Below are positions 1 to 62,773 of a stretch of DNA of 64,000 nt, piece after piece. The position numbers were made by a program, and so were the translations under genes. This stretch comes from Artemia franciscana (taxonomy: Eukaryota; Arthropoda; Branchiopoda; Anostraca; Artemiidae), in the NCBI RefSeq assembly GCF_032884065.1, contig NC_088881.1, positions 5,224,171 through 5,288,170 on the forward strand. Reading direction: 5' to 3'. The notes beneath the pieces are model-generated. The model saw only the letters and a list, made by a program, of their open reading frames with translations, was not told the DNA's origin and made no database searches. Positions within the stretch are counted from its first letter, which is position 1; each line of letters opens with the position of its first letter.

Positions 1-3000
1 GGTGTGAAATTTTAAGCCAGTATTAAGAGCGATAAGTCATCAAGTCGCAACATTTTTTCTTTAAGTGAATATCTTCCGCCTTTAATTTTATACATTAAAT
101 ATTTATTTCTGTTTTAGGTATTAAAATAAAAACTATAAAGACATACGTGGAACCTCTTAATTAAAAAATGACAAAAATGAGTTTTTAGACATTTCGTTCT
201 TCGGATTTTCCAAAATTATAATTTTCGTAATCAATGGCATGGAGTTCCAAAACTTAAAAATCTTCTCCCTACATACCAGAAGGTGGTTTCCCAGTAGGGG
301 AACGTTTGCGAATCGAATGTAGCTTAACCAGTGCCTAAAATTTACAATGATGGGTCAGTGCCAGACCCATCAAGAGACTGATATGCCACTAATTCCCTAC
401 CTACTTGAATCACTAGGTTTCAAACATCGGTTCAATCATTGAAGAAGCCAAAAAATTATTTTGAAGGGATAATCCCCCAGGAAAACGGTTCCAGATGGAT
501 GCACCAGACAAAATCTGTTCTAGATCTCTATTCTATGTATTCCTCCTCTAGGTGAATAGAGCACTGAGTCTATATATTTATCTTGTCTCCTTGACATATC
601 TTATTATATACTTGACATATTATTATTATTATTTATATTATATTATTATTTACCTGACATACGTATGATCCTTGACATAGCAAAGGTATAATCTCAAACA
701 AAACTTCTTTATAAAGATGTTATTTTTTCTATATTCATCATTATTCTTTATAAACTTCTTTGTACTTTTTAGTGCATTCAGATAAAAACCATTTTTGTTG
801 AAACACAGATTTAGAGAAAGCCTACCTCTAGTATTTACCTCTAGTATAATGGTTGGAAATTAATAGCTATTACTGTAATGATAACTGTTACAAAAAACTT
901 TAATAAAATCGCAGAAAACTGTCGGGTATGACTTCGTCTTTTCGTAAAAAAGAGGGTATCCTTAGAATTCAGATAAAAACCACTTCTGTTGAAACTAAGC
1001 CCCTTCTAAATCTAACCCCCTCCAGATTATTTAATGCAACACATGTATCTTGAAAGATTACTTCTTTCAGATACGAGGTCATATATGAACGACTCCACTG
1101 GCTGATTCCCTATGGTTCGTTCTTTACTATATTCCATCTAGGAAAAGCCGAAGGCCTTTTCCTGTGCGAGATACACATTTTGTCAAATGTTAACTGCGTT
1201 TAATCATACATGATCTAATCTTCACAATCCCTTGGAGTTATAAAGCGCCTCTATCTTTCGGTAAACCCAAACATCTTCTGTCTACATATTTGACTTATCA
1301 CCTCGACACGTGATAGCACAAAAATAAGCATAACTCTGGTTCAGGCTTAGGGTTAATAAGCAAGTAGTTATGAAACACACATATTCATGGGTAAAAACAT
1401 CCAAACCTAGTGGGGTACTTGTTAATTAATCACAACACACTCAAGAATTTTGATCTGCAAGATCTGACAAAAACACGTTTAGCTATCTGTATACACAGAC
1501 GATTAGCTTAGACTTAGTGGAAAAACTACATTGTAGGTATACTTTAATTAAATATTTAATGTATATAATTGGTATTTTGGTTAGGTTAGGTATTTAATAT
1601 ACTGCGTTCTGGGCAGCCTACTTTCTAGAATCCTTTGTTGTAGTTTCCATAATTTTGTTAATAAAATATTGTATTTCAATCATATTTAGATATATTTCAT
1701 TAGGATAAACTTCACTTCTTGGATGTGTTCTGAATAATTAGAAAGTACCGGGTTTTCTTGAGGAATAGGGTCTAAATTTTTTAAAGCATCGTTTCAAGCT
1801 AAAACAAATCAACAACCGTAAAAAATGATAATGGTCAAGAAAAAAAAATATTATAATCCGGAAAACGTGGCGTTTTTCCACCAGTCTCTGAACCAGTAAT
1901 TCTTACAAAATTAACGCGTTGTTTATGCTAACTAAATTAGTTTTGAGAGTTTGGCTTGATAAAATATATATTTTCAATGCTGGATTGTTGGAAATAATAA
2001 GTATTAAATGTAGGTTTGAGCTCGTCCAATCTAACCTAATATACTGCCAAGCCAAACGAATCTTCCTTCTTTGAGCATCTACTTTTATACACTAAAATTT
2101 TTACCATAGACCGCGGTTTTTTCTGAATAAAACTAGCTTATCTTTGCATGGGTTTACTCTTGAAATGTTAGACGAACGACCTTGTGTATCCAACAACCGT
2201 GGGGTAACGAACCGAGGGAGAACGACCGTGGGGTAAACGTTGGGGCAACTAATTTACTTCGTCGAACGTCCATGTCTTATAAATTTATTTTATTTGCCAT
2301 CATAAAGCTAGGTATTTGCGGAGAAAAGCAGGTTTATTATTCGCACGTGCATCCTCATAAAACACTACAAGAAAAGCATCTGTCCAGCCATCTATGCAAG
2401 GCATAAGGTAACGGTAGCTCTTTTTGAATGCTTTTGAATGTCCTGCACTTTTTAAGTCTTAAAATTTTTCATGAAAATACTGCATTTTAGTACTTTCTAT
2501 TAGTTGTTCATTTATTACTTGTGCGCGCACGATCTTTAAACGTTAGAAAAAAAAACACTCTGTCTATTCAGCCCTTTAAAAAAGGAATGGGCAAACGATG
2601 GCTAGGGCAAACAAACTTTCTGTTTTGAGCCCCCATGTTTTAGAAACCAAATACATCCATGAGAACAAAGTATCTAAAAAAATAAGCTTATTATTGTCAT
2701 GCATATGCTCTTAAAACGTAAAAAAAACCCACCGTCAGTCCTATCCATCACAAAAGGTAAAACCAAAACGAAAGCTTAAATATTAGCAGTTTTAGCAATG
2801 TACAGACTATCGGGTTTCATTCCTTCAACAATTTCTAGACTTGTTTCACTCCGGCAACACAGAGGAGGTATATCAGTTCTTACAGAAAGAGAAGGAATTG
2901 ATCCTTTTCACCCACATTAACCTGGTGACCCTCCCATTTAGAATATCTTGGTAAAAATTTTTGGCAATTATCTTAGAAGTAAACAGCAAAGGGTGAAGTC

Positions 3001-3205
3001 CAAGCATAAATTATGCACACGATAATAAGCTAATATAAGAAAACAAATCAGATCGAAAAGAAAAAAAATCAACTTTAAGATTAAAAGAAAGAGAAAGGAA
3101 AAGAAAGGAATTTAATTGTAAAAATCAAATAACGATAGTACAACTAAAAAAGTAACAAAACCTATGTATAGGGTGGAGAAAATAGACTTGCTTCATTTTA
3201 GAGTT
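1..3205. other. AT-rich stretch without recognisable genes
   Basis: No exon, transposon protein or long repeat was recognised. A TTATTA-rich simple stretch lies at about 602-655. Short open frames exist (for example 1075-1205 and 2182-2406 on the plus strand) but none has a protein I recognise or a convincing pair of splice sites. If the DSTYK gene to the right continues into this part, its next exons should be on the minus strand here; I looked for the conserved helical and kinase segments and did not find them. Confidence 0.5.
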
Positions 3206-3209
3206 GAAA

Positions 3210-3760
3210 AATAAATGGTAAAGACGACCGTCGGAGAAAAACGACAAAGAATATTCACCTCTGGTTAGACTGAAAAGGACCAATTATGAAAAACTTCCCA
3301 GTCGAAAAATGTTGGAAGTCGGAAATTGACTATTTGGAAAAGTTGGAAAACGACTATTCACCGCTGGTTAGATGGAAAAGGACTAATCATGAAAAACTTC
3401 CAAGCAGGAAAATGTTGGAAGTCAGAAAATGAATATTCGGAAAATTACTATTTGGAAAAGTAGGAAAACGAATATTCGCCGCTGATTAGATTGAAAAGGA
3501 CCAATCATGAAAAACTTCCCAGTCGGAAAATGTTTGAAGTTGGAAAAAGACCATTCGGAAAATGACTGTTCGAAAAAGTCTGAAAATGGCTATTCGCCAC
3601 AGGTTAGATTGAAAAGGACCAATCATGAAGAACTTCCCAGTAAAAAAACTGTTGGAAGTCAGAAAATAACTATTCGGAAAATGGCTATTCGCCGCTGGTT
3701 AGATTAAAAAGGACCAATCATGATTTCCCAGTCGGAAAATGTTAAGATTTGAAAATTACG
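3210..3760. repeat. Minisatellite, about 5 copies of a 94-118 bp unit
   Basis: The phrase GGTTAGATTGAAAAGGACCA, with small changes, recurs at about 3261, 3364, 3482, 3600 and 3694, each time followed by AATCATGAAAAACTTCC and a run of GGAAAATG/GGAAGT submotifs. Unit lengths vary because the GGAAAATGACTATTC submotif is present in different numbers. The short open frame at 3507-3707 lies entirely in these repeats and is not a gene. Confidence 0.85.
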
Positions 3761-4540
3761 CAAATGTTCACCTATCAACAATGTATCTAATTACACTTTG
3801 TGTGAAGTTGGAACGGTTGCTTCAAAAAAAAACTATAAATGACACTTTTTTTCTCATTTTGGGGACACCGTCTTAGGTCGAATTCCTTTTGGCACTGAGT
3901 GAATTTCGAAAAAAAAAACTAAAATGTAGTATAGATACATTAACGTTACTTCCAACAATAACTTCAGAGTCAAAAATTCAATTTAACCAAATTTTTTCAA
4001 CGGACATTCAATACACATTTTAAGGTTATAGAAAATAGGGATTTGTTGCGCTGATTAAGACAAGAAAAAAATTCTCGTCTCCAAGACAAGAAAAACCACA
4101 GAACAACCACAGCCATCTAGCTTCCACATCAAAATATTAAACATATACCATGAAAACCTTAAAAGGCCGCTATTTTAACTTCTTCTCTTTGTTACATTTG
4201 GCGGATGTAAAAAAAAAAGCTTTCTCAGTAGGAAATAAGGCGTTTTATTATTATTATTTAATATAGTCTACCCATTTTAGCAATTATTTCAAAATAGAAA
4301 TTTCAGAGCCTCAAAATATATACAGCATTTTTACCGCATTTCTTCACTGAGAAAATCTTGAGGTAACAGCACCAGAGCAACAAGGTGCAACCTTAATTTG
4401 TAAACCTATTTGTTACCGTCCAAGACATTAGATACTATCAAGTTACTTACAGAAATATCCTGGAATTTAGTATGCATTTTAAGATTCTTACTAATTAAAG
4501 AAACCAGGAAAATGAAGGATATTGGGGCATTTGGAGCCAG

Positions 4541-4694
4541 GGCCGTATCCAGGATTTTTTTCAGTGTGAGAAGGGGAATTTTTTTTAAACACATTAAATA
4601 TTTGTTTATATTCATTTTGTTACGTTTTTAAGAGTCGGACAAACCTTTCAAGAGGAGGCGGGTTAACCCCCCTAGCCCCCGACCCGGATACGGC
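4541..4694. mobile_element. Short TIR element, GCCGTATCC family, copy 1
   Basis: The stretch begins GGCCGTATCCAGGATTTTTT and ends with GGATACGGC, the reverse complement of the start, giving terminal inverted repeats of about 10 bases. The interior has no coding capacity and a C-rich part near the right end. Related copies lie at 5158-5430 and 19018-19203, so this is a small non-autonomous DNA element. No clear target duplication was seen. Confidence 0.6.
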
Positions 4695-5157
4695 ATTTTT
4701 GGAACTAAAAGAGATATCACACAATAGAATTGAAGCGGAGAGTATCAAAAATAATAAAAATAAAATTCAAGTTGACCTCCAAGACAAAAAAAGACAAAAA
4801 AGGACATGTAGCCTTTCGCAGCAAAATTTTAGTTGTATCACAAAAGCCTAAATAGAAATTTAGTTTTTGTTTTGTTTATATATGACCTGCATACATAAAC
4901 GATAGTTTTAAAATAATATTTAAGCTTTAGATACTCAAAATCCAAACAGTGTATTTTATTATGTTTTTTCCTCAGATCCATCATTTTAAGTGGGTTTGAA
5001 GCAATAGCATCAGAAAATTGAGCAAATGTTACTATAAAATTTATATTCATAATAGTAGATTAACAAATTTCGAACAAACAAGAGATTAAAGTTAAATTTT
5101 AAAAATGTAAAAAATTAGCTACAACACTGGCACAACATCCAAACCAATTAATTGAAG

Positions 5158-5430
5158 GGCTATTTCCAGGATTTTTTCAGCTAGGGGGGGGGGGGGGTCA
5201 CACAGTCTTTTTCGGGGTAGAAGAGTAGTGATGAACAATGGAGTGATGAACAAGAGTGGTGAACAATTTTTTGTTTAGGGGGATAGAAAATGATTTGTTT
5301 ACGAAAAAAATTATAAAAAACCTCAAAAAAAGCATTTTTTTTATAATTATTTTTGCTACGTTTATACGAGTCGGATTAACATTTTGAGGGTGGGTTCAAA
5401 CCGCATAATCCCCCACCCCTATATACGGCC
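5158..5430. mobile_element. Short TIR element, GCCGTATCC family, copy 2
   Basis: Starts with a degraded terminus (GGCTATTTCCAGGATTTTTT), followed by a run of 13 or so G, and ends ATATACGGCC. Terminal homology and the shared TTTTTTATAATT/TACGTTTATA interior link it to the copy at 4541-4694. No coding capacity. Confidence 0.5.
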
Positions 5431-5439
5431 TTGGCGATG

Positions 5440-7190
5440 AGTGAAATTAATTGATTTTCAACTGCTTTAGTAGAAACTAATTATTTGGAGTGAAAAATGT
5501 GACAGTCTGATAGACTTAACCAGTGGAATAGCTAAGGTGAGCGTTTTGGTAATTATAAAGATTTAATACCTAAAGACTGATCAAGAACATTTTAACCAAG
5601 ATCTAAATACCTTAATTATTAATCTTAGATAATATTTATACACCAAAAAATAACTATTATGAACAACGTGGTCTCATTACGTAAGACTTACACACTCAGA
5701 ATATGTCTTTACTGGGATTGGATGCCGAGGCAAAATAGCCTGGGAACGGTAATAATTAGGGTATCTAGTGTATAGAGGTACTATTGCTTTTACTTACGCT
5801 TGTAAGGCAGTGAGTTATTGAACAGCAAGTTTAAAGGGGGGCCGGACATCTTCCACCGAACTGAAAAGAATACTTACTTTTGATACCTATAAAAGGACCT
5901 TTTCCATACTCGGACCCTCCCCCCCTAAAAAATACTACTACTCTTGAAATAGGGTCCTGCCTATGTGTTTGAATTACAAAGTATCAAAACTACAATGAAA
6001 ATAAAACAGAAAAAGAAAGATGAAAGCAAAATATATACAAAGATAAACTTGTACTTATAAAAGTTTGACTTACATCTTGATCATTTTTTATTCTATTATA
6101 TCACCATCTTCTTACTAGTTAACACATGGACAAACCACGAAAAATGGACTAAAAGAAAAAAAAACCTATTTATTTATATAAACACTGTCTCATTATTGAG
6201 AAAAAGACAGCAACAAATTACATCCAAAAAAATTAGAAGAAAAAAAGAATTTCTTGTGTTACCTCTGATAAATAATTAATAGAGTGAGGCTAGGTTCTAG
6301 CAGAAGTCACATTTCACTTAAGCAGTCGGATTTTCAGTCGCCGGACGAAAAATATCGTCGCGCGGACGAATATTCGGTTCGCTTCTGTGTTACATATTGA
6401 AAAGTTAGTTTCCTAGCCGTTAAAGTTTCGATTCAAACCAATAGAGCTTCAATTTCAAAAAATGGTAATTTAAAAACAGGACGCATACATGCTACCAATA
6501 CTATTTTTAATGGTATTCAAAAGAATAATTTCTTCTAGAAATATTCAAAGAAGAATTTCACTTTAATAGGGACATAACGGCTAGAATTTACATATGGGGG
6601 GGGGGGGTCACCGAATTGGACATCCACTCGATTGTTGGCACGTGAAAAATTTGCCGTTTTCTGACATAGCCTAGCTTAAGTGTTCAGAAGTAAGGCCGAA
6701 ATATTTTTTTCTTCTTATTTTTTTAGATTAATTCTTTTCTACTGCTTAATTTTAAAACATTGACCGTATTATGTCAAATTTGTTAGTTATTAAGACAATA
6801 TAAAACAAAAGGAAAAGAAAAACCTCAGTCAGGACTGTTGCACATTTGACAAGGCGAAGTTGAAATTGACGTCTCGCAAAAATATTCAAATTAGGGAGGC
6901 TTTCAAATCCAATTACTATTTGACTGTATCCGTTTCCAGCGGAAATTTGACGTGTACGTGTCCCCGGCAACGTAATTTGGTATCCTAAAACAAAGTTGAA
7001 AATCAATTTTAAAACAAGAAACGCATTTAACAAGTAAATTTGCTAAACCTTAAATACACAATGAGCTGGTGAGAAGGTAAATTTGTTTGATACTATTAAG
7101 GAGCCGCACCCTAGGATTCATTAATCACTTTCCCTGATATACATAGTGCCTATAAGCAATTTCATTTTAAAAGGTTTATAGGCGCGTAAA
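5440..7190. other. Repeat-poor stretch, no supported gene
   Basis: Mostly AT-rich with poly-A patches and a G run at 6597-6607. A CpG-rich patch (several CG within 6325-6385) stands out from the background. One interval, 6823-6994, is open on both strands and has splice-like ends; it is described under findings because I cannot assign it. Confidence 0.4.
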
Positions 7191-12551: not shown

Positions 12552-15346
12552 CAGAGGCGCCATTTGGGGCAAACCTTGGGGTGGGCATGAACTCCATCTG
12601 CCCCCCCCCCCTGATTCACTTCGTGTCGTGTAAGAAAAATGCGGGTTTTGACAGCACGTCGATCGAATATTCCAAGTAAAAACGCAGTTTCAGCCCCCGT
12701 GTTCTTGGAAATGTACTATAACCGACTGTGGGATTCAGCCACACTGACCTCTAAGATTCATTATAACAACAAAGATTACAATTAAAGAGGTTAAGTGATT
12801 AAACTGAAAGTGTAAAATTCAACCAGACTACAGGCTGGCCTTCCTCAGTGAGAAACTTTGTTATTTAAGTAAACAATACGTCGGTGAAAGTAATCTTCAT
12901 TGTTATACTGAGGGTTGTAACCAAAATATCGGTTTTCCTTCAGCAGAAGTCTTACAGATCAAATATATTTACAAAAAGGAAAAACATAACAAGAGAAATT
13001 TTTTTTATTAAAACACTATAGGTAACAAGGGGAACCGCCGAGGTTTCATCTTTATAAAATCGTCAACAAGCTGGTCGTAGTCCAAATTTTTTACTAAATC
13101 CTTCTCGGCAAATATCAAAAGGAGGTGACGGAGACAATCATCTCCTGTTGTAGACTGCAGGCAGTTTTTCACTATTTCAAGGCTAGAAAACAAACGCCCA
13201 TTGCTTGCTTTTGTCACAGGAAGTGTGGCAGCAATACGAAGTACTTTAATAACTTCTGAGTAAGCCACTGGTAATGCTTGAAGATTGTCGACAATGTCTA
13301 AGGAGTTTCCCGGTTTTTTCTCCTCATCAAGCAAGAAACGCTCGAAAATACCAGCTTGAGATTCGAAAAGAATATCATCGATATCCAGCTCGCCGTAAAG
13401 AGCAGAGAAATGCTTGAGCAACTCTGTGTCCATAAACTTGGTCAAGCTTGGATCCAAGGCTTCGAGTGTGCTCAGCACTGGCAAGTTATCTGTGAACCTT
13501 CTGTCAAATTTGGCTAGTAGATGGTCCAAAGTCTCGAAATACTCTCGCTTCATTTCATCCGCCAAAGTTGTAGTCCGATTGCCAGATTCAATGAAGTTCT
13601 TTCCTAGCGTCGAAGTTGTCACAAATTCTTTCAGAAGTTTGGTGATCTTTTGAGTTCTTCAAGGTCGTCCTTTCTGACCAACAGAGGAGGTTCTAGTCGC
13701 GGGTTCATTCACAGCAGGTACTTCGATTTCAAGTTCTGTTACAAACTCTTTAGCCTTCTCAAAAAGCAATACGAATGAAGCATCTGAACGCAGGTCGGTG
13801 AGTTCGCCTCTTGTGGCCCAAATCAGGGTGTGCGATCGGGAAATAGCCAAGTCAACGGCCTGGAGCTGCTGAGACAGCGAGTTCGTCGCTTGCATAATTG
13901 CTTCTATATAGTGCAATTGGAAGATAACAAGGAACGAGTTCATCTTCTTCTGTAGCCCTGATGCCTCTGCCCGTGCTTTGCCGTCGGCTCCCTCGCTTAC
14001 AGCAAACAGTACAACTAAAATTCATTCATTTTGGAGTCTAAACCTTCGATATAGATCGATACCAGTAAGACCATCGTGTGGCAGCATTTCTTTCCAGCTC
14101 CAGAACTGGCAGTTCGGCAGCTTTATGGGCCTCAACAAACAACTGATGCCGACTGTTGCTGTTGGAAATGATTGTGCATAGAGTCTGGACCAGTGAGAAA
14201 AAAGAACCAACAGTGCCGACAGATTCAACGAAGCTCGCAACGACCAAATTTAGATTATGTGCAAGGCAATGAATGTAGATTGCCTGCGAAAATTTCGCTC
14301 TCAAACGAGCTTGAACACCGGAGAACCATCCACTCCTTACGCTTTCTCCGTCGTAGAACTGTGCGACACAGTAGTTTCCAATCGATTCCAATTCTTGTCA
14401 CTGTGTCATGAATGAAATTTGCTAGACTTTCAGCATCCACGCTCTTTATGTGGTTGCATCCAATCAGTCTTTCTTTTACTTTTGCTTCTTTGAAGTAACT
14501 AAGAAGAATGGGAAGCTGCTCTTTCTTTGAGTTGCCCTTCGTTTCGTCGACCAGAATGGCAAAGTATTTGGCGCTTTTTAATTCTTGCACTATTGTGCGC
14601 TAAAGCCTGGAACCGATCACCAAAATAAGATCGTTCTGGTATTCATGGGATTTGTAGTGACCGTACCGTCTCTGCAGCTTGTTGAAGATCGTAGGAGAGT
14701 ACTCTGCAAGAAGATTGCATGTCTTGACGAAATATCCCTTGTTTGTCGAGGATTCTGTTTCGTCGTCCCCCCTAAAGGCAGTTCCGAGTCGCATCAATAG
14801 AGCTTTTACTTTTAATAAGGCTTTTACATGCTCTCTGTTCTCCTTGATTTCCTTGTTTCTGTCTGTCATTAAAACTGACGTGAGTGGTTGCATCTCCTTG
14901 GGTTGTATGGCTTTGAACTTAGTCCATGAAACTGCCTTGTCTTTGTGGCGGTCACTTTTAGTATGCTGTTCGTGAACGTTAGATATGTTTTTCCATTTCT
15001 TCATGCCGATGTCTATGAAAGGTCTAGACCTGTACCTGTACCCGGGAAGAGCAGACGTGCCGCCACAATGTCTGTAGCAGAAGCAGTAAACAGAATCATC
15101 CTGTATGGAGTACTACAGCCATGGGTGCTTTTCATAATATGAAGCATTGAATGACCGTTTCACCTTGCCGTTTGTTGTCACTTGCGCAGGGTATTGTACT
15201 AGTTTCTTGGACAGAATAGATTATACTGGACGTAATAAATAATTATGGTCGGAAAAGGGCCCTTTGTGGTGGAAGCTTGGGCCCCCCTGGAAAATCTGGG
15301 GTGGGCGTGTGCCCATCCATGCCCCCCCCCCTAAATGGCGCCTCTG
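12552..15346 (-). mobile_element. hAT-type DNA transposon, decayed
   Basis: A 2,795-base element. Termini are inverted: CAGAGGCGCCATTTGGGG at the left and CCCCTAAATGGCGCCTCTG at the right, the CAGRGGCGC type common in hAT elements, each followed inward by a G/C-rich run. The flanks TTTTTTGC and TTTTTTTT are at best a decayed 8-bp target duplication. It carries a broken transposase on the minus strand (13008-15190) and lies in a DSTYK intron in the same orientation as the gene. Confidence 0.85.
13008..15190 (-). pseudogene. hAT transposase (ZMYM1-like, TTF zinc finger), broken
   Basis: Pieces in order along the minus strand: a TTF-type zinc finger remnant around 15000-15180 (YEKHPWL then CFCYRHCGG and MKKWKNISNVHEQH), a linker (14600-15004), a segment with the first catalytic Asp (KYFAILVDETKGNSKKEQLP, about 14510-14570), the second acidic region and HCLAHNLNLVV (about 14240-14380), a helical insertion (13659-13943), and the C-terminal dimerisation domain with ATLPVTKASNGRLFSSLE (about 13170-13240) ending KRRRFPL-like. 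At least one nonsense codon (in the zinc finger, after HPWL) and several frameshifts separate the pieces, so no functional enzyme can be made. Family knowledge: these cut-and-paste enzymes use an RNase H-like fold and create 8-bp duplications. Confidence 0.85.
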
Positions 15347-15984: not shown

Positions 15985-17640
15985 AACAAAATGTAAATCT
16001 AAAGCCAATCAAAAAATACTTATCCAATGTTGTCCAATTTTGAGTTCGGATGATATTTTTGACCCCCCGTTTGGGACCGTTTGTTTTGGGCCCCATTTGG
16101 ACCGGCACATTTTTTTTTATTAGACTCATATTCCAACGGTGCAAAACGGTACAAAAACTACAGTGTTTTCCATGGGACTAAATCCTCCTTAAGTACCATC
16201 TAAAGAGAAAATGTGAGCCAATAAGTCCGGCTATGTTCACTGGACATAGCCGGCTATATTAAAGTTCTCTTAGACCAAACAAAATGTAGCTCTAAAGCCC
16301 ATCGGAAAATACTAATCCAGTGTTGTCCAAATCTAAATTCGGAAGATATTTTTGACCCCCCGTTTGAAACCGGCACATTTTTTTTTTTTTTTTTACATCA
16401 GACTCATATTCCAACGGTACGAAAATTACAGTGTTTCCATGGGACTAAATCCTCCTTAAGTACCATCTAAAGAGAAAATGTGCGCCAATAAGTCCGGCTA
16501 TGTTCGCCGGACATAGCCGGCTATATTAAAGTTCTCTTAGACCAAACAAAATGTAACTCTAAAGCCAATTAGAAAATGCTAATCCGATGTTTTCCAAATC
16601 TGAAATCGGAAGATATTTTTGACCCCCCGTTTGGGACCGGCACATTTTTTTTTTTTTTTTTTACATTAGACTCATATTCCAACGGTGCAAAACGGTACAA
16701 AAATTACAGTGTTTTCCATGGGACTAAATCCTCCTTAAGTACCATCTAAAGAGAAAATGTGCGCCAATAAGTCCGGCTATGTTCGCCGGACATAGCCGGC
16801 TATATTAAAGTTCTCTTAGACCAAACAAAATGTAATTCTAAAGTCAATCGGAAAATGCTAATCCGATGTTGTCCAAATCTAAATTCGGAAGATATTTTTG
16901 ACCCCCCGTTTGGGACCGGCACATTTTTTTTTTTTTTTTACATCAGACTCATATTCCAACGGTACGAAAATTACAGTGTTTCCATGGGACTAAATCCTCC
17001 TTAAGTACCATCTAAAGAGAAAATGTGCGCCAATAAGTCCGGCTATGTTCGCCGGACATAGTCGGCTATATTAAAGTTCTCTTAGACCAAACAAAATGTA
17101 ACTCTAAAGCCAATTAGAAAATGCTAATCCGATGTTTTCCAAATCTGAAATCGGAAGATATTTTTGACCCCCCGTTTGGGACCGGCACATTTTTTTTTTT
17201 TTTTTTTTATTAGACTCATGTTCTAACGGTGCAAAACGGTGCAAAAAGTGCAGTGGTTTCCATGGGACTAAATCTTCCTTAAGTATCATCTAAAAAGAAA
17301 ATGTGCGCCAAAAAGTCCGGCTATGTTCGCCAGACATAGCCGGCTATAACAAAGTTCTATTGGACCTAACAAAATGTAATTCTAAAGTCAATCGGAAAAT
17401 ACTTATCCGATGTTGTCCAAATCTGAGTTCGGAAGATATTTCTAATCCCCCCGTTTGGGACCGTTTGTTTCGGAACGCGCTTGGACCGGCACATTTTTTT
17501 CTTTTTTACATTAGATTCATGTTCCAACAGCGTAAAATGGTACAAAAAGTACAGTGTTTTCCATAGGGTTAAATTCTCCTGAAGTACCATCTAAAGAGAA
17601 AATGTTCGCCACTAAGGTTACAACTTTTCAAAGATTTTGA
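15985..17640. repeat. Satellite with alternating ~268 and ~278 bp units
   Basis: The anchor AACAAAATGTAA recurs at about 15987, 16279, 16547, 16826, 17093 and 17370. Every unit holds GACCCCCCGTTTGGGACCGG, a poly-T run, CCATGGGACTAAATCCTCC and the palindrome CCGGCTATGT...ACATAGCCGG. Units alternate: those starting at 15987, 16547 and 17093 carry GCAAAACGGT(A/G)CAAAAA, those at 16279 and 16826 carry the shorter GGTACGAAAATT. This is a two-unit higher-order repeat of about 546 bases. A degraded further unit lies at 18110-18290. Confidence 0.85.
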
Positions 17641-32066: not shown

Positions 32067-33583
32067 TTGAACCTGCATCTTGCGTCCATAGTACAAAGTC
32101 TCCCCCTTTCACTGGCTCAGGTCAAACTATTCCTTCCTCCACCTCTTTCCCCCTCTGATGTTATAAATAAAATCCGAAAGCTCAAAAAATCAAGTACTTG
32201 CCCATTAGACCTCCCAATTGACTTGATTAAAGCCTTTTCAGACACAATTGCTGGACCTTTATCTGATATTTTTAACCAAATTACAAAATCTGATAAATTC
32301 CCAAGTTGATGGAAACAAGGTTTTACAACTCCCATCCCAAAGAAATCTTCCAGTCTGACTATAACCAACATGCGTCCTATTACACTCACTCCAGCTTTTT
32401 CTAAGCTTTACCTTGGGTTCCTTTGTGACAGGCTTAAAATTATAGCCTACCACGCATTGACATCCAACAGTTTGGTAATTTAAGAAAAGCCTCCACCACC
32501 CATTACCTTGTACACTTGATTCACACGATCCTAAGTGAACTAGAGAAACCAAATGTTTGGCTAAACCTGGTTTTAGTCGATTTACAAAAAGCGTTTGACT
32601 TAGTTGACCACAATATCCTAATTCGTTTACTACATGATAACTTTGAAATTGACCCACTTTTAGTAAATATTGTTATATCGTTCCTTTCAAACAGATCACA
32701 AGTTGTAAAGTACAAAAATACCTTCTCTAACCCCCTCCCCAGGTACTATGGAATACCTCAAGGAACCTTATTGGGACCACTATTATATCTTGTCATGATT
32801 AACGAAATTGGCAAGGAATTCCCCCAAAGATGGAAATATGTGAATGACTTGTCGATCCTTGAAGTATGTCATAGGAATATTAAAAATGACCCTGTTGATA
32901 TCCTAACCCAATGTTCGGATGAATCTAAGAATCTAAATATGACAGTAAATCCGACTAAATCACAGATAAAGACGATCAACTTCATGAAATCTATTCCTGC
33001 TTTTTGCGACCCGATCCCACGCGAAATTCTAGTGAAACATGTAAAGCTTCTTGGTGTCACAATTTCTAATGATCTCAGGTGGGACACACATGTTTCCAAC
33101 ATTGTCAAACAAGCAAACGTTTCACTATCCATTTTTAAGCTGCTAAACAAATTCAATTGTCCTACGATACATTCCCTCCGTGTTTACTTGTGCTTTATCA
33201 GGCCGTTATTGGAATATGCATGTCCAGTCTGGCATACGCAACTTTCAAATGAACTTACTGACAAAATCGAGTCGGCCCAAAAGCGTTCGCTCAGGATCAT
33301 TTACAAAGAAGGCAAAATTCCATACTCCTTCCTCCTTAAAGCTGCACCCATTACCACCTTAAAAGAAAGGAGGGAAAAAAATTGCCTGCTTTTCGCTAAA
33401 TCAGTCATTTCCAATCCCCGTACTGAGGACTTACTCCCTGATTTTCACAATCCCATTAGACTCCGACTCCCCCCGTCAGCCTCCTTAGCAGTCCCAACTT
33501 ACTTTCCGATCCATGCTGTTACAGAGAGGTTTCGTAAAAGTTTTATTCAATTTATTATGGAACACCTTGATAATAATACATGA
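32067..33583 (+). pseudogene. LINE reverse transcriptase with altered YVND box
   Basis: First piece (32067-32309) has the LKKSSTCPLDLPIDLIK region and ends at a TGA where WKQGF should follow; a shifted piece continues to about 32480; the last 355 codons (32516-33583) contain VLVDLQKAFDLVDHNIL (motif A), YYGIPQGTLLGPLL (motif B) and, at 32837-32848, YVND in place of the catalytic YVDD. Thumb and C-terminal RT-associated parts (LLGVTISNDLRWDTHVSNI, RPLLEYACPVWH, AQKRSLRIIY) are intact. The Asp-to-Asn change would abolish catalysis if translated. Confidence 0.85.
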
Positions 33584-44786: not shown

Positions 44787-46681
44787 AGGAAAAAAGAGAT
44801 AAGCCTGGTCACTATGAAAAGTATGTTCAAGCTCGGAACAGACTACGAAAATTAACTAAACAACTGTACCAAAATTTTGAGCTTGGACTTGCCAATGAAT
44901 GCAAGAGTAACCCAAAAAAGTTTTGGAATTACGTCTCTAGTAAAGACCACGCTAGGTGCTGTGTTAAACGCCTCACTACTGATGATGGAGGAGAAGTGAC
45001 TGACACCCAGAAACTAGCAAACTTACTAAACAACCAGTTTGGTTCTGTCTTCACAACAGAACCAGATAGTGAGCATCCACCCCCTCCTAAATATCTCATA
45101 CCGTCTCCCATGAGTACGGTTGTTATCACTGTACCTATGGTGGAAAAGAGGCTAAAAAACCTTGATGCCAACAAATCGGCCGGCCCCGACGGAATCCACC
45201 TGAGGTTGCTCAAAGAAACAGCCACCGAGATTTTCCCTGCTTTGTGCCATCTATTTCAGTTTTCTCTTGATTGCAGAGTTGTTCCCTCACAATGGAAGAC
45301 TGCTTATGTTACACCCATATTCAAAAAGGGTGACTGGTCTAAAGCTGAAAACTACAGACCTATAAGCCTTACATCTGCTGTCACTAAGGTTTTAGAGAGA
45401 ATTGTCAATGACACACTTCTCAAGCACCTAGTTTCCAACAGCATTATCTTGGACAACCAACATGGTTTTCTCCCCGGGAAGTCAGTCGAAACCAACCTAC
45501 TTGAAACTTAAGAGCTAATTACTCAGCTTCTTGACAGAGGATTTCCTGTCAACCTAATTCTACTAGACATTGCCAAAGCTTTTGACCAAGTCCCCCATAG
45601 TTGTTTGCACTCCAAACTTACAGCCGTGGGCATTGATAAGAAACTAGTCAACTGGCTAATGGACTTCCTTGGTGGCAGAACGCAAAAGGTTTGGCTCTTT
45701 ACCACGGACGGAGAAAAGATCTATTCAACACCTTGCCAAGTTCTGAGTGGCGTCCCTCAAGGAACTGTCCTTGGACCGACCTTATTCCTCATCTATATCA
45801 ATGACCTGGTAGCTGAAACAAAAAACCATTTGACTCTTTACGCTGACGACTCCAAGCTATTTGGTACTGCAGAAAACATTAGCCTACAAGCCAATTTCAA
45901 CCAAATTCAAGCATGGGCAGATAAATGGCTTCTGTCCTTCAACATCTCAAAGTGCATCACTCTTCATTTCAGCCGTGGTAATCCGCAGCACCAGTACACT
46001 ATGTACAATGGCAAAACGTCATCAACAGTCTTGATTCCTACTTTTAGTAGTGGTAGAGACCTGGGAGTCCTGTTGGATAACAGCTGAAAATTCCACAAGC
46101 ACACTGCTAAAGCAGTTTCAAAGGCAAATGCAAATTTGGGACTCCTGAAAAGAACCGTCAGTAGTCAATTCTCCAAAGTTTTTCTGAAATTATATAAAGC
46201 TCTGGTCAGGCCAATCCTAGATTTTGGAACATGCCTTGCTGGTCCTTTTTACAAGAGTGACATCCAGCTTGTTGAGGGTGTCCAGAGGAGAGCCACCAAA
46301 TGCATCGATGGTTTATGCAGTCAGCCCTACTGCAGAAGATTACAATCTGTTAACCTCCCAACACTCGTTTTTCAGCGTAGGCGTAACAACATGCTGCTCA
46401 CCTACAGGTACCTCCAGCAAGCAGATCAGAAGCTGTTCACTTTCTCTCCCCACCAAAAGCAAACATGAGGACTTTTCAAAAAGCTGTTCAAATCCAGTGT
46501 TAACACCAAAGTCCAACTAGATTTTTTCAGCCAGCGAGTGGTGAACAATTGGAACCAACTAAGCCAAGAAACAGTCTCAGCAACCTCACCCAAGGAATTC
46601 AAAAAGAGGCTCGACAAGGAATGGGAGGCCAAACCATGGAGATTCCAGTGGGAAAATCCCTGCCAGCCCTCACTACCATAA
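44787..46681 (+). pseudogene. CR1/Jockey-like LINE reverse transcriptase, three stops
   Basis: One frame runs from just after a TAG at about 44785 to a natural stop at 46681, interrupted only by TAA at 45509-45511, TGA at 46085-46087 and TGA at 46466-46468. Domains in order: linker helix (EKYVQARNRLRKLTKQLYQN), NKSAGPDGIHLRLLKE, WKTAYVTPIFKKGDWSKAEN with YRPISLTS, motif A LILLDIAKAFDQVPHS, motif B VLSGVPQGTVLGPTLF, intact YADD at 45839-45850, thumb, and the C-terminal FFSQRVVNNWNQLSQETVSA. The endonuclease is absent (5' truncation). Few disabling changes suggest a fairly recent copy. Confidence 0.9.
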
Positions 46682-47439: not shown

Positions 47440-49745
47440 AATAAATATCATGCAATAATCATGAATCGCGCTTGTCTACTACTCAACCTCTTCCTAAACA
47501 ACACAAAGTTATTGATTACAGGCGTATCTCTGAAAGACTTGCTGACTTTGATTGGGATACCATATTCACTTCAGATATCAAAGAATCTTGGCAGAAATTC
47601 AAAGCTGTATTGCTGGTTTTTGAAAAGGCTCACACTAGAACATTTTGGAGGAGACAGGCAAAAACACTACCCTTCATGACTTGTCTAACTAGCAAACTAC
47701 TGAATAGGAAGAATCAAGCCTGGAAACACTTTAAGAAAAAAGAAAACAGATGCAAACTATCAGAAGTATCAAAAGGCACAGAATGAGGCCACCAATTCCA
47801 TCAAACAACTGAAGAAGAGACATGAAGAAAGGTTAGCTGAAAATATAAAAAATAATCCCAAGCTGTTTTGGCAGTATGCTTCTGTTAAATGTCAAAATAG
47901 GCACTCTGTCCCTGATTTGACTCATCATGGTCAGACAGTTTCAGACCCAGCTATAAAAAGCCAAGATCCTAAATAACCAATTTGCATCAGCTTTTACATC
48001 AGAAACTGCTAGTAAGCTCCCAGCTCCCCCCTCATATATTGTTACTCAACCAATGCCACCTCTATGCCACCAATGCTCTCCTGAGCTGACTGAGGAGACT
48101 GTTATGAAACAGCTAGCTTTGTTGGATGTAAATAAATCTGCAGGGCCAGATGGCCTCCACCCCCATCTCTTGTATGAGTGCAGAACAGAAATAGTATACC
48201 CACTCTCAAAACTCATTAGACTATCTCTTGATAGCTCAAAGCTTCCTGCTGAGTGGAAAGTGGCATATATTACCCCCATTCACAAAAAGGGATGGAAAGA
48301 TTCTGTGGAAAATTACTGGCCTATTAGTATTACCTCTGTTGTTGTTAAGCTTCTTGAACGTATTGTCAACAAAGCAGTTATTGAGCATCTTGATTGGAAT
48401 CATCTTCTTAACAGCTCTCAACATGGTTTCTGATGCAACAGATCAGTTGACACTAATCTGCTTGAGTCATATGACTATATTACAAAACTACTGGAGTTGG
48501 GAATCCCTGTTGACATGATCCTCCTTGATTTTTCAAAAGCATTTGACAAAGTTTGTCATAGGAGACTTGAGCTTAAGCTACAATCTATTGGTTTGGAGGA
48601 AACATTCTTAAATGGATTCTTGATTTCTTGAGGAATCGTGTTCAGCATGTAAGACTGTTTGATGAAGATGGCAATCCTATTCTATCCTCCTCTCAGAATG
48701 TTATAAGTGGGGTTCCACAGGGTAGTGTTCTTGGCCCCACCATGTTCAATATTTTCATAAATGATGCTCCTCTAGCGCTTAAAAGCAGGATGACGTTATA
48801 TGCTGATGATTCCAAGGTAATTGGTCCAGCTAGCACTCTTGAAGATACTTCCCAACTTCAAAATGACCTTGATCTCCTTAGCGTGTGGGTGAAATCTTGG
48901 CTACTCACTTTCAATGTGTCAAAATGTCATGCTTTACACTTTGGGCACAAGAATATCAATACAACTTACTCTCTTTACGGTCAGCTCCTTTCTCCAGTGT
49001 TGGAAGAACGTGACCTAGGAGTAATTGTTGACAATGATCTTAAATTTAGCACTCATGCTAAGAAGGCAGCAGCATCAGCTAGCTCATCAGTAGGGCTCAT
49101 AAAAAGAACAATTTCCTCCCGTTCTCCTAAAATTCTGAGCCTTTTGTATAAGGGACTTGTTCAGCTGAGGCTTGAGACAGGCATGGTCCTTGCGTCCCCC
49201 TTTTTTAAAAAAGATGCTAAAATTCTTGAAGATGTCCAGAGAAGAGCTACTAAGATGGTGAGTAAACTGCATGAGCTCCCTTACCCTACAAGGCTATGCA
49301 AGCTGAAACTCCCAACACTGGTTTACAGAAGAAGACAGGGTGATGCCATTCTGGTTCATAAACTTATTAATTCAAAGGCAGTTCCTGGTCTTCTTCCTCT
49401 GGCATCTCAGGGTTCTTGTACAAGGGGACATAACTTGAAGTTATCCAGGCATTTCTCCTCAAAGCACCCATTTTCTTACCAACTGTGTTGCCAACCTCTG
49501 GAACAAATTACTGCAAGATACCATTGCCGCCCAAACCACAGACAGCTTTAAGAACCATCTTGACAACAAATGGTCAAAACAAGAATGGAAGTATAACTGG
49601 GAAGCACTCAAATCAGAAACATCAAACCACTAGTCAAGTGTATGTATTCAACTATGTGTCATGTGTTATCAACTCTGGAGTTTCTACAAGGAAAAATCCT
49701 TATATTGCTCCAAGCTGCAATTTAAGGTAATAAAAGTTATATTTT
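47440..49745 (+). mobile_element. Second CR1/Jockey-like LINE copy, 5'-truncated
   Basis: Starts in the linker after the endonuclease (FDWDTIFTSDIKESWQKFKA, RRQAKTLPFMTC) and carries the whole reverse transcriptase and a 3' UTR. It lies in the same orientation as the copy at 44.8 kb and shares its 3' end but differs throughout, so it is a relative rather than a duplicate. Confidence 0.85.
47472..49730 (+). pseudogene. CR1/Jockey-like LINE reverse transcriptase, broken
   Basis: Frames in order: 47472-47786, a shifted continuation (AQNEATNSIKQLKKRHEERL, FWQYASVKCQNRHSVPDLTH), 48053-48433 (DVNKSAGPDGLHPHLLYECR, WKVAYITPIHKKG), a TGA at 48431, DMILLDFSKAFDKVCHRRLE (motif A, about 48512-48570), then 48628-49551 with VISGVPQGSVLGPTMF, intact YADD at 48799-48810, and ERDLGVIVDNDLKFSTHAKK. 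A last shift near 49400 affects the tail. About four disabling changes. Confidence 0.85.
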
Positions 49746-59168: not shown

Positions 59169-59500
59169 ATAATATAGGCATTGACCTAGTCATTCTAATT
59201 TTTTTCAACTAAAAATTATAGATTGGTTTATAAACTAGACCTGTTTGATTTGGTAATATTTGAATAACTCACCAATGTGACAGCCGCTTTCCTCAGAACC
59301 AACGTTTTTAACAACATAAAAATTTTCTTCTGATTCCTAATTAAGCTTAGCCAATGCAAGATGGGCCTAGGATACCAAAAACCCTTTAAATCCTAAGGAA
59401 TATGCATAAGATTACTTAAAGGTCACTGAAAAGCTAAGATTATTTCCACTATTAATAGTTTCCTTGTCTTTTCTTTAGACTAAACAATTTCACATTTCTA

Positions 59501-61933
59501 CAGTGTTTCCACTTTCTTTTTTGAAAAATCCCGAATCAGAGACGAAAAATCCCTAAAAATCCCCTTTTGGTTAAACAATAATCCTTTGAAAAATCCCTCT
59601 CATGCTAATCACGACAGTTAGCTACTGGTTTCCTGATCCACGAAGTCCATCAGTGTGCTTCTGTCTGAGCACCCGATTGTTTTAAATAAAAATCTCTCCG
59701 AACGAACTGAAAAGCACGGGAAGATGCAAACACTATAATTTTAAAAAAAAAAAACTTCAATACTAAGTCCCAAAATTTGCATTCTCCTATCTAGAGCATG
59801 GATACTAACGAATGCAGAATTCAACCTCTCGTTCAAGAGTCAAAGAACAGAACATTATTTTTGTTTGTTAAACGTACAATACAAAAATATTTGCCACATT
59901 CGCCCGAAAGGTGAAAGCACAGGATGAAAATAGACAAACGATCGAACATGACCTTCAAATGTGCATGCTCTTACACATCGCAGTCAAAGTAAATATCATG
60001 TTTATATTTTGTTTTTATTAATCAAATATATCACAAATTAGGTAATGGTTTCAGTTTGATTCAGGACAATTAAAAACGCTCTAATTAAAGACACTAGCAC
60101 TGGGACCTGGCTGGGATACGAGTTCAGCTGCCTCTTTTGAGGTAGCGCTTGCCTTTACAGCTTTCAGTCGTTTTTGCATCTCGGTATCCAACTTCATGGA
60201 TATGGCACTAGTGCCAGCTCTTTTCATTCCGTATTTACACTGCAACAGACCCGCTGTTGTCGACTGTCCCAAACGGTTGCGGTGATCTGTTTTAATATTT
60301 TTCAAATCACTGAAAAGCCTCTCGACCATAACGCTGCTGAATGGAAGGGTCAAGAACCACTGTATCACCTGTTTAAGATGGGCAAGGCGCAAGTCCCCAG
60401 CACCATTCTTCAGGTTCAATATGTATCCCCAGTACTCCTTTGCTGACGAAATGCCAAGACTCAGATTTTCTGGAAGATCAACCATGGCCTGGCGTCTCCA
60501 CTTTGCGTCGATTGTCGCTTTGTCCCACCCCGGCATGCTAAATTTGTCGAGATATGGAGACAGAGTTCGCACACTCACCTCTCTTGCAACTTTCGGGTCC
60601 AACACTTTTGTAAACTCAAAAATAGGGTCTTCGAATTTGAACCTTGCCTTGATTTGTGCTATGGCTTCGACGTAAAAATCACGGGCAGCCCTGTATACCA
60701 AGTCCAGCTCTGTTTGCTTGACACATCGGTCACATGACAACAAAGCCATGCTGTTATGAGCTTCCATCCCCAGGTACACTTGACGAAGTGGTAGGTATTG
60801 AGGTTCATTCTTTTCGTCCAGTTCTAGAATGTTGGAAAAGGTCCTTATGTATGATAAGTTCATGAAGCTACTAGCAAAGGTTCTTACCAGCTCTTCTGCC
60901 TCCTGTCTAATGCGATAGAACAACCCATCCTCGGTCTGGAATAGACAGTTGAATTCATTAAAGAGGCCGAGTGCGAAGGACACAAACTCGAGTAACGTCT
61001 TCATCAGTGGGTTCTGTAGGGTTTCCAAGACCTTATCATGGCCATGGGTTGGGTCTTCAAAAACCACGTTCGTGAAATATAGCTTCAAGGCATTCCACTG
61101 CTGAAGGAGTCTTTTGAAACAACCTTCAAGAGAAAGCCACCTAGTTTGCCCTGGTGACAGGATCTTGTGTGGTTTGAGATTGCAGTAGTCCTGAAATTCT
61201 TTTAGGGCTCTCCCTCGCTTAGCACTCATGCTAAAATGTGAGTAGACCGTTCTACAGAGGTCTTCCAAGCTTTTTGGGAGTTTTTTACACGCATATGAGG
61301 CGCATATGCGTGCTGTATAACCTGTCTGCTGTATAACCTGACCCTGGTACTGTATAGCTTGAGACATAGGTACAACTTGTGGAATAAATGTTGTGTACAT
61401 GGGGGCCTGCCCCTGCTCATTATTTGGACCTACTGCATTTGGCCCCATCATCACTCCAGGAGAGTGATGTGGATCCCAATTTACCTGCATCTCAGGTAAA
61501 ACACACCACTATACCCAAAAAATTAACAAAAATATCAAACCCTCAATTCAAAAATAATATATCTTACTTTTACTTTCCTTTTGTTTCTTCTTATTCAAAT
61601 AGCCAATTCCAATTGCCGCTATTGAATTTTGAAACAGTTGCCAAGCAATTTTGAAAAAGTTGGCGCGTAGCTCACTATATCGCTCATACTGACAAAAAAC
61701 AAAATCCTTACAGGGAAAGATAAAAAATTCTGGAAGCTGCACGAAACACCAACAAAAATCCTTGAATACACCATCAAAACTGAAAATCGTGAATATCTCT
61801 ATTTTAATAGGGAAAATCCCTTAATGTCTCAATTATCCCTGAAAAATCCCGTATCCCTTTTTAGAGAAAGTAATCCCGCGGAAGGCCTAGAAATCCCTCA
61901 GAAAGGGATAAATCCCTCAAAGTGGAAACACTG
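59501..61933 (-). mobile_element. hAT-type element with perfect 8-bp TSD
   Basis: 2,433 bases with inverted ends CAGTGTTTCCACTTT and AAAGTGGAAACACTG, flanked on both sides by CATTTCTA (59493-59500, 61934-61941). Subterminal regions on both sides hold many AAATCCC motifs. It carries one uninterrupted 469-codon frame on the minus strand. Perfect termini and duplications indicate a recent insertion. Confidence 0.95.
60081..61490 (-). CDS. hAT transposase C-terminal half with foreign leader, intact ORF
   Basis: 469 codons without a break, ATG at 61490. Residues 1 to about 58 are rich in Gln, Pro, Met and Gly (MQVNWDPHHSPGVMMGPNAV, APMYTTFIPQVVPMSQAIQY) and resemble no transposase I know. From about residue 62 it is hAT: CASYACKKLPKSLEDLCRTV, LSPGQTRWLSLEGCFKRLLQ, a helical middle, and the dimerisation domain WFLTLPFSSVMVERLFSDLK followed by HRNRLGQSTTAGLL. 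The N-terminal zinc finger and the first two catalytic acidic regions are missing, so it cannot be an active transposase. At the join (61311-61340) a TGCTGTATAACCTG repeat occurs twice. The sequence before the ATG reads LPE and then meets a TAG; a splice acceptor there is possible. Could be a captured host exon, or a DNA-binding repressor in the making; neither is proven. Confidence 0.8.
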   Translation of the reverse strand: MQVNWDPHHSPGVMMGPNAVGPNNEQGQAPMYTTFIPQVVPMSQAIQYQGQVIQQTGYTARICASYACKKLPKSLEDLCRTVYSHFSMSAKRGRALKEFQDYCNLKPHKILSPGQTRWLSLEGCFKRLLQQWNALKLYFTNVVFEDPTHGHDKVLETLQNPLMKTLLEFVSFALGLFNEFNCLFQTEDGLFYRIRQEAEELVRTFASSFMNLSYIRTFSNILELDEKNEPQYLPLRQVYLGMEAHNSMALLSCDRCVKQTELDLVYRAARDFYVEAIAQIKARFKFEDPIFEFTKVLDPKVAREVSVRTLSPYLDKFSMPGWDKATIDAKWRRQAMVDLPENLSLGISSAKEYWGYILNLKNGAGDLRLAHLKQVIQWFLTLPFSSVMVERLFSDLKNIKTDHRNRLGQSTTAGLLQCKYGMKRAGTSAISMKLDTEMQKRLKAVKASATSKEAAELVSQPGPSASVFN

Positions 61934-62450
61934 CATTTCTAATTTTTTTTTCCAATGAAACGTTCGATTGGCAATTCTTGGTCGACTTCTTACTAAATAA
62001 AATGGCAGCAGAGAAAAAAGTCAACTTTTAAGTTAACTTTTGCGAGTCAAATCAAACGCAACTCTGAAATCGCAAGAAATTCAAATCCAGTAAAGCATGA
62101 GCTTTGAATGTGACCTAGTAGGGAGTGATGAATATAAAAACTTTCGAGCATCTGTTCCTTTAAGAAAAATATCTGTTGATAATGATCCATCTAAGGTGTT
62201 CTTATCAAATTGTAGGCCTATAGTCGGTTGTCTTTAAGGTTGCTAAACCTATTTTTTTTTTTACCAAAATGAGTTTGGTGTAGGCCATCAAATGCTGTAA
62301 ATAAGCACGGTAGTTAAAAAATACATTTTCGCTCAAGATAGGAGTCGGGTAAAACATAAATACGGTCAATGTTGATATTATCTGAACTATTGTTTTGGGT
62401 CATGAAACTATTGTTAATAGATGCATTTTGACATTTGGAACATCTTTTAT

Positions 62451-62773
62451 CTCTTGCAAAACTACCACTAACTCACCATTATGGAGTTATTATATATTTG
62501 CACATTAGGGGGGGGGAGCATAGCATATATTAAATACAGCAATGGTTAGTTTACATAGCCTATTTAATATATGCTATGCTTTACCCCCACCCCTCTAATG
62601 TGCAAATATATAGCCCAAATTCGTTTTTAAACTATTACAGATTCCCAATTTCAAATATCCAATCAACAAAAGCAGAAATGATTGCAATTCTATATGTGTA
62701 AATACAAGAATTTTTGGGCCAGAATAACTCCATAACAGTGAGTTTGTGGTAGTTTTGCAAGAGAGAAAAGATG
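62451..62773. mobile_element. Palindromic TIR element holding a smaller insertion
   Basis: Left arm 62451-62535 (CATCTTTTATCTCTTGCAAA, ACTACCACTAACTCACC, AGTTATTATATATTTGCAC, AGCATAGCATATATTAAAT) is mirrored by 62560-62612 and 62724-62773. The right arm is split by 62613-62723, which itself starts GCCCAAATTC and ends TTTTTGGGC. Non-coding. Confidence 0.8.
62613..62723. mobile_element. 111-bp insertion inside the palindromic element
   Basis: Sequence absent from the opposite arm: the arm reads ATATATAATAACTCC on the left strand, but on the right ATATATA and ATAACTCC are separated by this segment. Its ends GCCCAAA and TTTGGGC are inverted. Confidence 0.75.

Follow-up and report, generated by a model that had tools for sequence, protein, structure and literature searches.

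A young, non-autonomous hAT element of Artemia franciscana with an open frame that joins a LINE ORF1 start to the back half of a transposase

Introduction

Capture of host-gene pieces by Pack-type transposons is known in plants, and the P element has truncated transposases that serve as repressors. In the cited part of an account of maize Ac/Ds (PMC3260210), capture of this kind is called rare in hAT elements, and Ds-del and Ds2 are presented as hAT derivatives with internal deletions and filler sequence. A retroelement can also sit inside a DNA transposon, as in MER6/MER6A, which the relevant section of PMC6887750 describes as a mariner-derived MITE with an inserted V-SINE. Precedents for composites and for filler were found in a literature search by title that returned no LINE-ORF1/hAT fusion, a result that does not prove that none has been reported. 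Here we describe such a fusion. It lies in a 64,000-nucleotide stretch of the Artemia franciscana genome (GCF_032884065.1, NC_088881.1, positions 5,224,171 to 5,288,170, forward strand), which we call the window and whose own numbering is used below.

Results

The fusion is carried by a hAT element at 59501-61933, delimited by its sequence, its terminal inverted repeats (TIRs), and its target site duplication (TSD), with the gene on the minus strand. Copies of the perfect 8-bp TSD (CATTTCTA) are found at 59493..59500 and 61934..61941, and the perfect 15-bp TIRs occupy 59501..59515 (the 3′ element end in gene orientation) and 61919..61933 (the 5′ end). An uninterrupted 469-aa frame runs on the minus strand from 61490 to 60081, stop included. 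A preliminary description of this DNA had listed the TSD, TIRs, and 469-codon frame, all of which are present in the sequence. The C-terminal part of the fusion matches Dimer_Tnp_hAT (PF05699) with E 2.5e-05 and 24.4 bits against a Pfam cut-off of 21.4, and Hermes-type transposase chains give weak matches (E 0.033-0.045 and 0.095). With its 8-bp TSD, short TIRs, and C-terminal dimerisation region the element belongs to the hAT superfamily, and the earlier view of it as a recent hAT copy is supported.

Read in gene orientation (all segments on the minus strand), the element begins with a hAT 5′ end at 61564..61933, equivalent to positions 10-379 of a reference copy, L015, up to a LINE insertion site. 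The 5′ end of a LINE follows at 61323..61561 (positions 26-264 of the reference copy L036, 99.6% identity), of which 61323..61490 is the start of LINE ORF1 and encodes fusion residues 1-56 from an ATG identical to the LINE's own. An 18-bp filler at 61305..61322 encodes residues 57-62 (GYTARI). The remainder, 59501..61304, is the hAT 3′ part (L015 positions 3598-5399, 97.6% identity), in which 60081..61304 encodes the C-terminal part of the transposase, fusion residues 63-469 plus the stop corresponding to residues 307-710 of the L015 transposase. The chimaera proposed earlier is genuine and is composed of a LINE ORF1 start, filler, and a hAT back half. Its join had been placed at 61310; that position does fall inside the filler, and the exact join is 61304/61323 with the 18 bp between. 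A 49-bp pattern of the join, allowing ≤3 mismatches, occurs at two sites in 1.27 Gb and its reversed control at none, so the join is not a chance arrangement. The N-terminal residues had also been described as unlike transposase, and this holds for the first 56, which are non-transposase; searched alone, this leader has no match in PDB or Pfam.

The segment 60081-61490 was compared with the window's own genome (1.27 Gb), and 44 matches were listed with 40 of 108 candidates scored, so the counts are minimum values. Both halves are covered by only two of the 44 listed matches, the window itself and C8:7553488. Nine of them end at the join (query 1221-1224) and 18 contain the leader alone (query about 1243-1410). 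The remaining 15 are partial: 12 are back-half pieces, one of them a 70% relative on C1, and three are very short back-end pieces, each beside a leader match. Because nine of the listed matches stop at the join and 18 hold only the leader, the leader and the back half evidently occur separately in this genome.

Extension of the leader-only loci revealed that the leader continues into a repeat of ~5.83 kb with sharp ends and with flanks that differ between copies; seven of the copies are near end-to-end. Its ORF1 is a 525-aa stop-to-stop frame (519 aa from the ATG) that opens with the leader (MQVNWDPHHSPGVMMGPN...) and gives a sub-threshold Pfam match to zf-CCHC (18.9 bits vs a cut-off of 20.8). 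Its ORF2 (1216 aa) matches Exo_endo_phos, RVT_1, and RNase_H, all above the Pfam cut-off. The repeat is a non-LTR retrotransposon (LINE) with an APE-type endonuclease. A query of the 121 N-terminal residues of ORF1 returned 73 listed matches in the same genome, eight of which are a stop-free 525-aa frame as in the LINE; the list grades through broken relatives to one chance-level entry (E 3.2), with one-by-one inspection confined to entries with fetched sequence. The preliminary description had allowed for a leader confined to the element, and the many matches outside it exclude this.

The parent hAT is seen in L015 (on C20), where the TSD is GTTGCAAG and the transposase is a single 710-aa frame that begins with an N-terminus of its own and lacks the leader; a second hAT copy, L016, is likewise without it. 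The possibility that full-length copies all carry the leader had been raised as an objection, and the 710-aa frame of L015 does not carry it. Relative to this transposase the fusion is without the first 306 of 710 residues, in agreement with the earlier claim that the front of the enzyme is lost. The missing part contains IIDETTD (203-209), CADTTNTMMG (269-278), and CTCH (299-302; L015 numbering), stretches that we take to include the enzyme's first catalytic acids and its CxxH motif. A single-sequence fold of the L015 transposase had a mean pLDDT of 35.4, too poor to place the catalytic acids. Since the front 306 residues are missing and the transposase is incomplete, the window element is non-autonomous, and it probably moves only in trans, on intact hAT transposase. 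If translated, the fusion protein should not cut DNA, as the front of the catalytic domain is missing; the most it might do is interfere by way of its dimerisation region.

How LINE and hAT came together can be read on C16, where one copy (L011 and L012) runs as hAT to position 379, then LINE 26-5824 with a (CAA)n tail, after which the hAT resumes. An 11-bp repeat, AGTAAAAGTAA, lies on both sides of the nested LINE, which is without its first 25 bp, and the arrangement reads as a LINE insertion by retrotransposition. Locus L041 has the same segment order; an exact-string search found no nested joins there, so that the exact joins are read in the L011/L012 copy only. The hAT/LINE boundary itself (window about 61562) recurs at 14 genomic sites with ≤3 mismatches, compared to 0 for the reversed control. 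Ten of the 14 sites were examined, and as L041 and L011 apparently lie inside one C16 element these represent nine insertions. Perfect and mutually different 8-bp TSDs flank six of the nine: CATTTCTA for the window (C19), TTACGATC on C8, ACTGAAAG at L009, GCTGTAAG at L021, GCTCAAAT at L039, and TCTGTAAC for C16:735044-758223, whose ends are in L041 and L012. The 8-bp flanks of L022 and L023 are unmatched, and a single end was found for L020. The different, perfect TSDs at six of nine insertions indicate that the composite moved as a hAT unit. We note that the C16 interval (~23 kb) holds two hAT-LINE composites in a row within one TCTGTAAC pair, with 1.1 kb between the loci unread, an apparent internal tandem duplication.

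Different internal stretches are missing from the composites at L009, L020 and L021, L022, L023, and L039. In the window lineage the loss extends from LINE 264 to hAT 3598. The filler is templated: taken together with its edges, it reproduces LINE sequence in direct orientation (CAGGTTATACAGCA) and then neighbouring hAT sequence in inverted orientation (CACGCATATG). Direct and inverted copying of local sequence at joins is expected of polymerase-theta-like joining or of abortive gap repair. Templated joins of this sort would point to end joining in which short stretches were copied as the break was repaired, for example, in a failed gap repair after excision; internal deletions could alternatively arise without excision. 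Retention of the reading frame across the join would be a matter of chance, an event of about 1 in 3. L020 and L021 constitute a further internal-deletion derivative, in which LINE 361 is joined to hAT 4741 with inverted-copy filler; the inverted copy, GAGGTAGCGC/GCGCTACCTC, was identified by eye. From the match listing, G000:C19:1128312 has a 91-residue leader match, a 94-aa frame, and a stop, all as in L020/L021.

Only two copies of the fusion were found, that of the window on C19 and that on C8. The join is shared by one further copy, a point that the preliminary description had proposed to check. The two have different TSDs (CATTTCTA vs TTACGATC); 4 substitutions and one 2-bp indel separate them, and their proteins differ at one residue. 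Segmental duplication can be eliminated as the source of the C8 copy because the match ends exactly at the TIRs and because nothing in the C8 sequence examined matches the 1000 bp on either side of the window element. A decayed relative of about 70% identity at L043 (G000:C1:40789000-40795000) has hAT 21-160 adjoining hAT 3634-4607, which is another loss of the transposase front with a breakpoint close to that of the window.

The hAT lineage also contains a second, older LINE piece ahead of the transposase (L015:3305-4477, minus strand), in which part of a coiled-coil frame is accompanied by a frame for an APE-type endonuclease. The latter matches Exo_endo_phos in Pfam (E 4.9e-11), and the reverse transcriptase part is missing. 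The piece is present in all five loci that cover the region (L015, L016, L011/L012, L041 in part, and L042/L013), with the endonuclease frame unbroken in two, L015 and L011/L012. At least 40 places in the genome, hAT copies among them, match the endonuclease region (40 of 133 candidates scored). In two of these, L046 and L047, the hAT is matched only as far as about 2479 and then once more from 2477 to about 2569. The ~1.8 kb in between has no counterpart in the hAT, and in L046 it is crossed by a long frame that looks by eye like a reverse transcriptase. The ~1.8 kb that these two loci carry and the hAT lacks imply that the hAT took in a LINE twice and that the older one has lost its middle as well.

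Other repeats occur elsewhere in the window. A broken hAT-like remnant at 13008-15112 (minus strand) matches Dimer_Tnp_hAT and, below threshold, DUF4371. Several non-LTR reverse transcriptases have left fragments, with adjoining frames assigned by eye, on the plus strand at 32438-33583, 44789-46468, and 47957-49551; RVT_1 is matched at 32438-33583 and 48577-49551 and falls below the cut-off at 44789-45511. At 16110-17463 a 267-bp unit is repeated five times in tandem and contains CAGTGTTTCC, which is like the start of the hAT's TIR. A foldback at 62441-62773 with 51-bp arms of 92% complementarity is possibly a small inverted-repeat element.

Discussion

Taken together, we put at roughly 95% the probability that the window fusion is a non-autonomous internal-deletion derivative of a hAT-with-LINE composite transposon. 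The surviving nested copy shows that a LINE first retrotransposed into the hAT ahead of its transposase gene, and the TSDs show that the resulting composite then relocated as a hAT unit to several places. Internal deletions, seen in several copies and plausibly a result of repair after excision, took out most of the LINE together with the transposase front. Local sequence was copied both directly and in inverted orientation at the window join, perhaps by polymerase-theta-like joining or abortive gap repair. One derivative is joined in frame and has since transposed on at least one further occasion, which produced the C19 and C8 copies. Nothing in our searches pointed to capture of a host gene or to a function under selection.

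Another explanation is that the fusion is expressed and maintained, either as a dominant-negative repressor of hAT transposition acting through its C-terminal dimerisation region or under host co-option. The frame is open in both copies, whose proteins are one residue apart, the dimerisation region is retained, and the truncated repressors of the P element provide a precedent. Against this, only two copies were found, the nested LINE's first 25 bp are missing, and the sequence changes are compatible with neutrality. Of the 11 copies tested, 5 have an open back-half frame, namely, both fusions and 3 of 9 others. The changes common to both fusions relative to the majority of seven other copies are 3 synonymous and 8 nonsynonymous; 8.6 nonsynonymous changes are expected under neutrality (p 0.71), with little power at n = 11. 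Stop-making changes account for 4.6% of those possible, and, indels uncounted, a frame that has taken 11 changes would still be open with a probability of 59%. An open frame needs no function, because the 11 common changes are consistent with neutrality and this half is also open in 3 of 9 sister copies. The preliminary description had found the intact frame unexpected unless the copy were very young or useful; in so young a copy it is unsurprising and fits neutrality, with counts small enough to be compatible with weak selection as well. We consider maintenance for a function very unlikely. An extended form, in which the translated fusion would act in trans as a two-part regulator (ORF1 N-terminus plus dimerisation half) that damps hAT movement, in a hAT lineage with at least two LINE intakes both reshaped by internal deletion, seems to us a long shot.

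The preliminary description had raised the possibility of a Pack-type hAT element with an exon captured from a host gene for a low-complexity protein. The leader is indeed foreign to the transposase, and exon capture has the plant precedents mentioned at the outset, rare as it is said to be for hAT elements (PMC3260210, in the part cited). However, a Pack-TYPE element contains a captured host-gene fragment, and the fragment here is LINE ORF1: 8 of the 73 listed ORF1 matches show the LINE's 525-aa stop-free frame, and a nearly whole nested LINE is visible in the sister elements. The host-exon claim must be given up in favour of a LINE ORF1 N-terminus brought in by nested LINE insertion, and the odds of its being correct are slight indeed. 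That the leader is an ordinary spliced first exon of the hAT transposase is barely conceivable, for although longer hAT copies also carry it upstream on the same strand, L015 and L016 are without it, the L015 transposase is a single 710-aa frame with its own N-terminus, and independent LINE copies start their ORF1 with it.

The internal-deletion origin looks like an ordinary mechanism, with two common jumping genes involved and the fusion frame as a by-product. It leaves a clear and recent record of a retrotransposon riding in a DNA transposon and of internal deletions that create new open frames by chance, and it cautions against taking an unbroken chimaeric frame, when the element is young, as evidence of host-exon capture or of a useful gene. 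The value of the case is its legibility, as a single genome still contains both parents and the composite along with several deletion derivatives and the fusion.

Compared with known systems, the window element resembles Pack-TYPE elements, as characterised in the cited part of PMC8903248, in being a non-autonomous DNA transposon with foreign coding sequence, and differs from them in that the foreign piece comes from a retrotransposed LINE and not from a host gene. As in maize Ds-del and Ds2, the hAT ends and the 8-bp TSD are kept while the interior is lost or replaced by filler, and some Ds elements likewise have retrotransposons inside; in the maize cases covered by the cited part of PMC3260210, the inserts are LTR retrotransposons, other transposons, and gene fragments, whereas here a LINE ORF1 start is in frame with the transposase. 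MER6 shares with our element a retroelement inside a DNA transposon, multiplication of the composite, and a variant that is internally deleted. As described in the relevant section of PMC6887750, MER6 combines a mariner with a SINE, is non-coding and old, and has parents that amniotes lack; the Artemia element combines a hAT with a LINE, is young, and has both parents in the genome.
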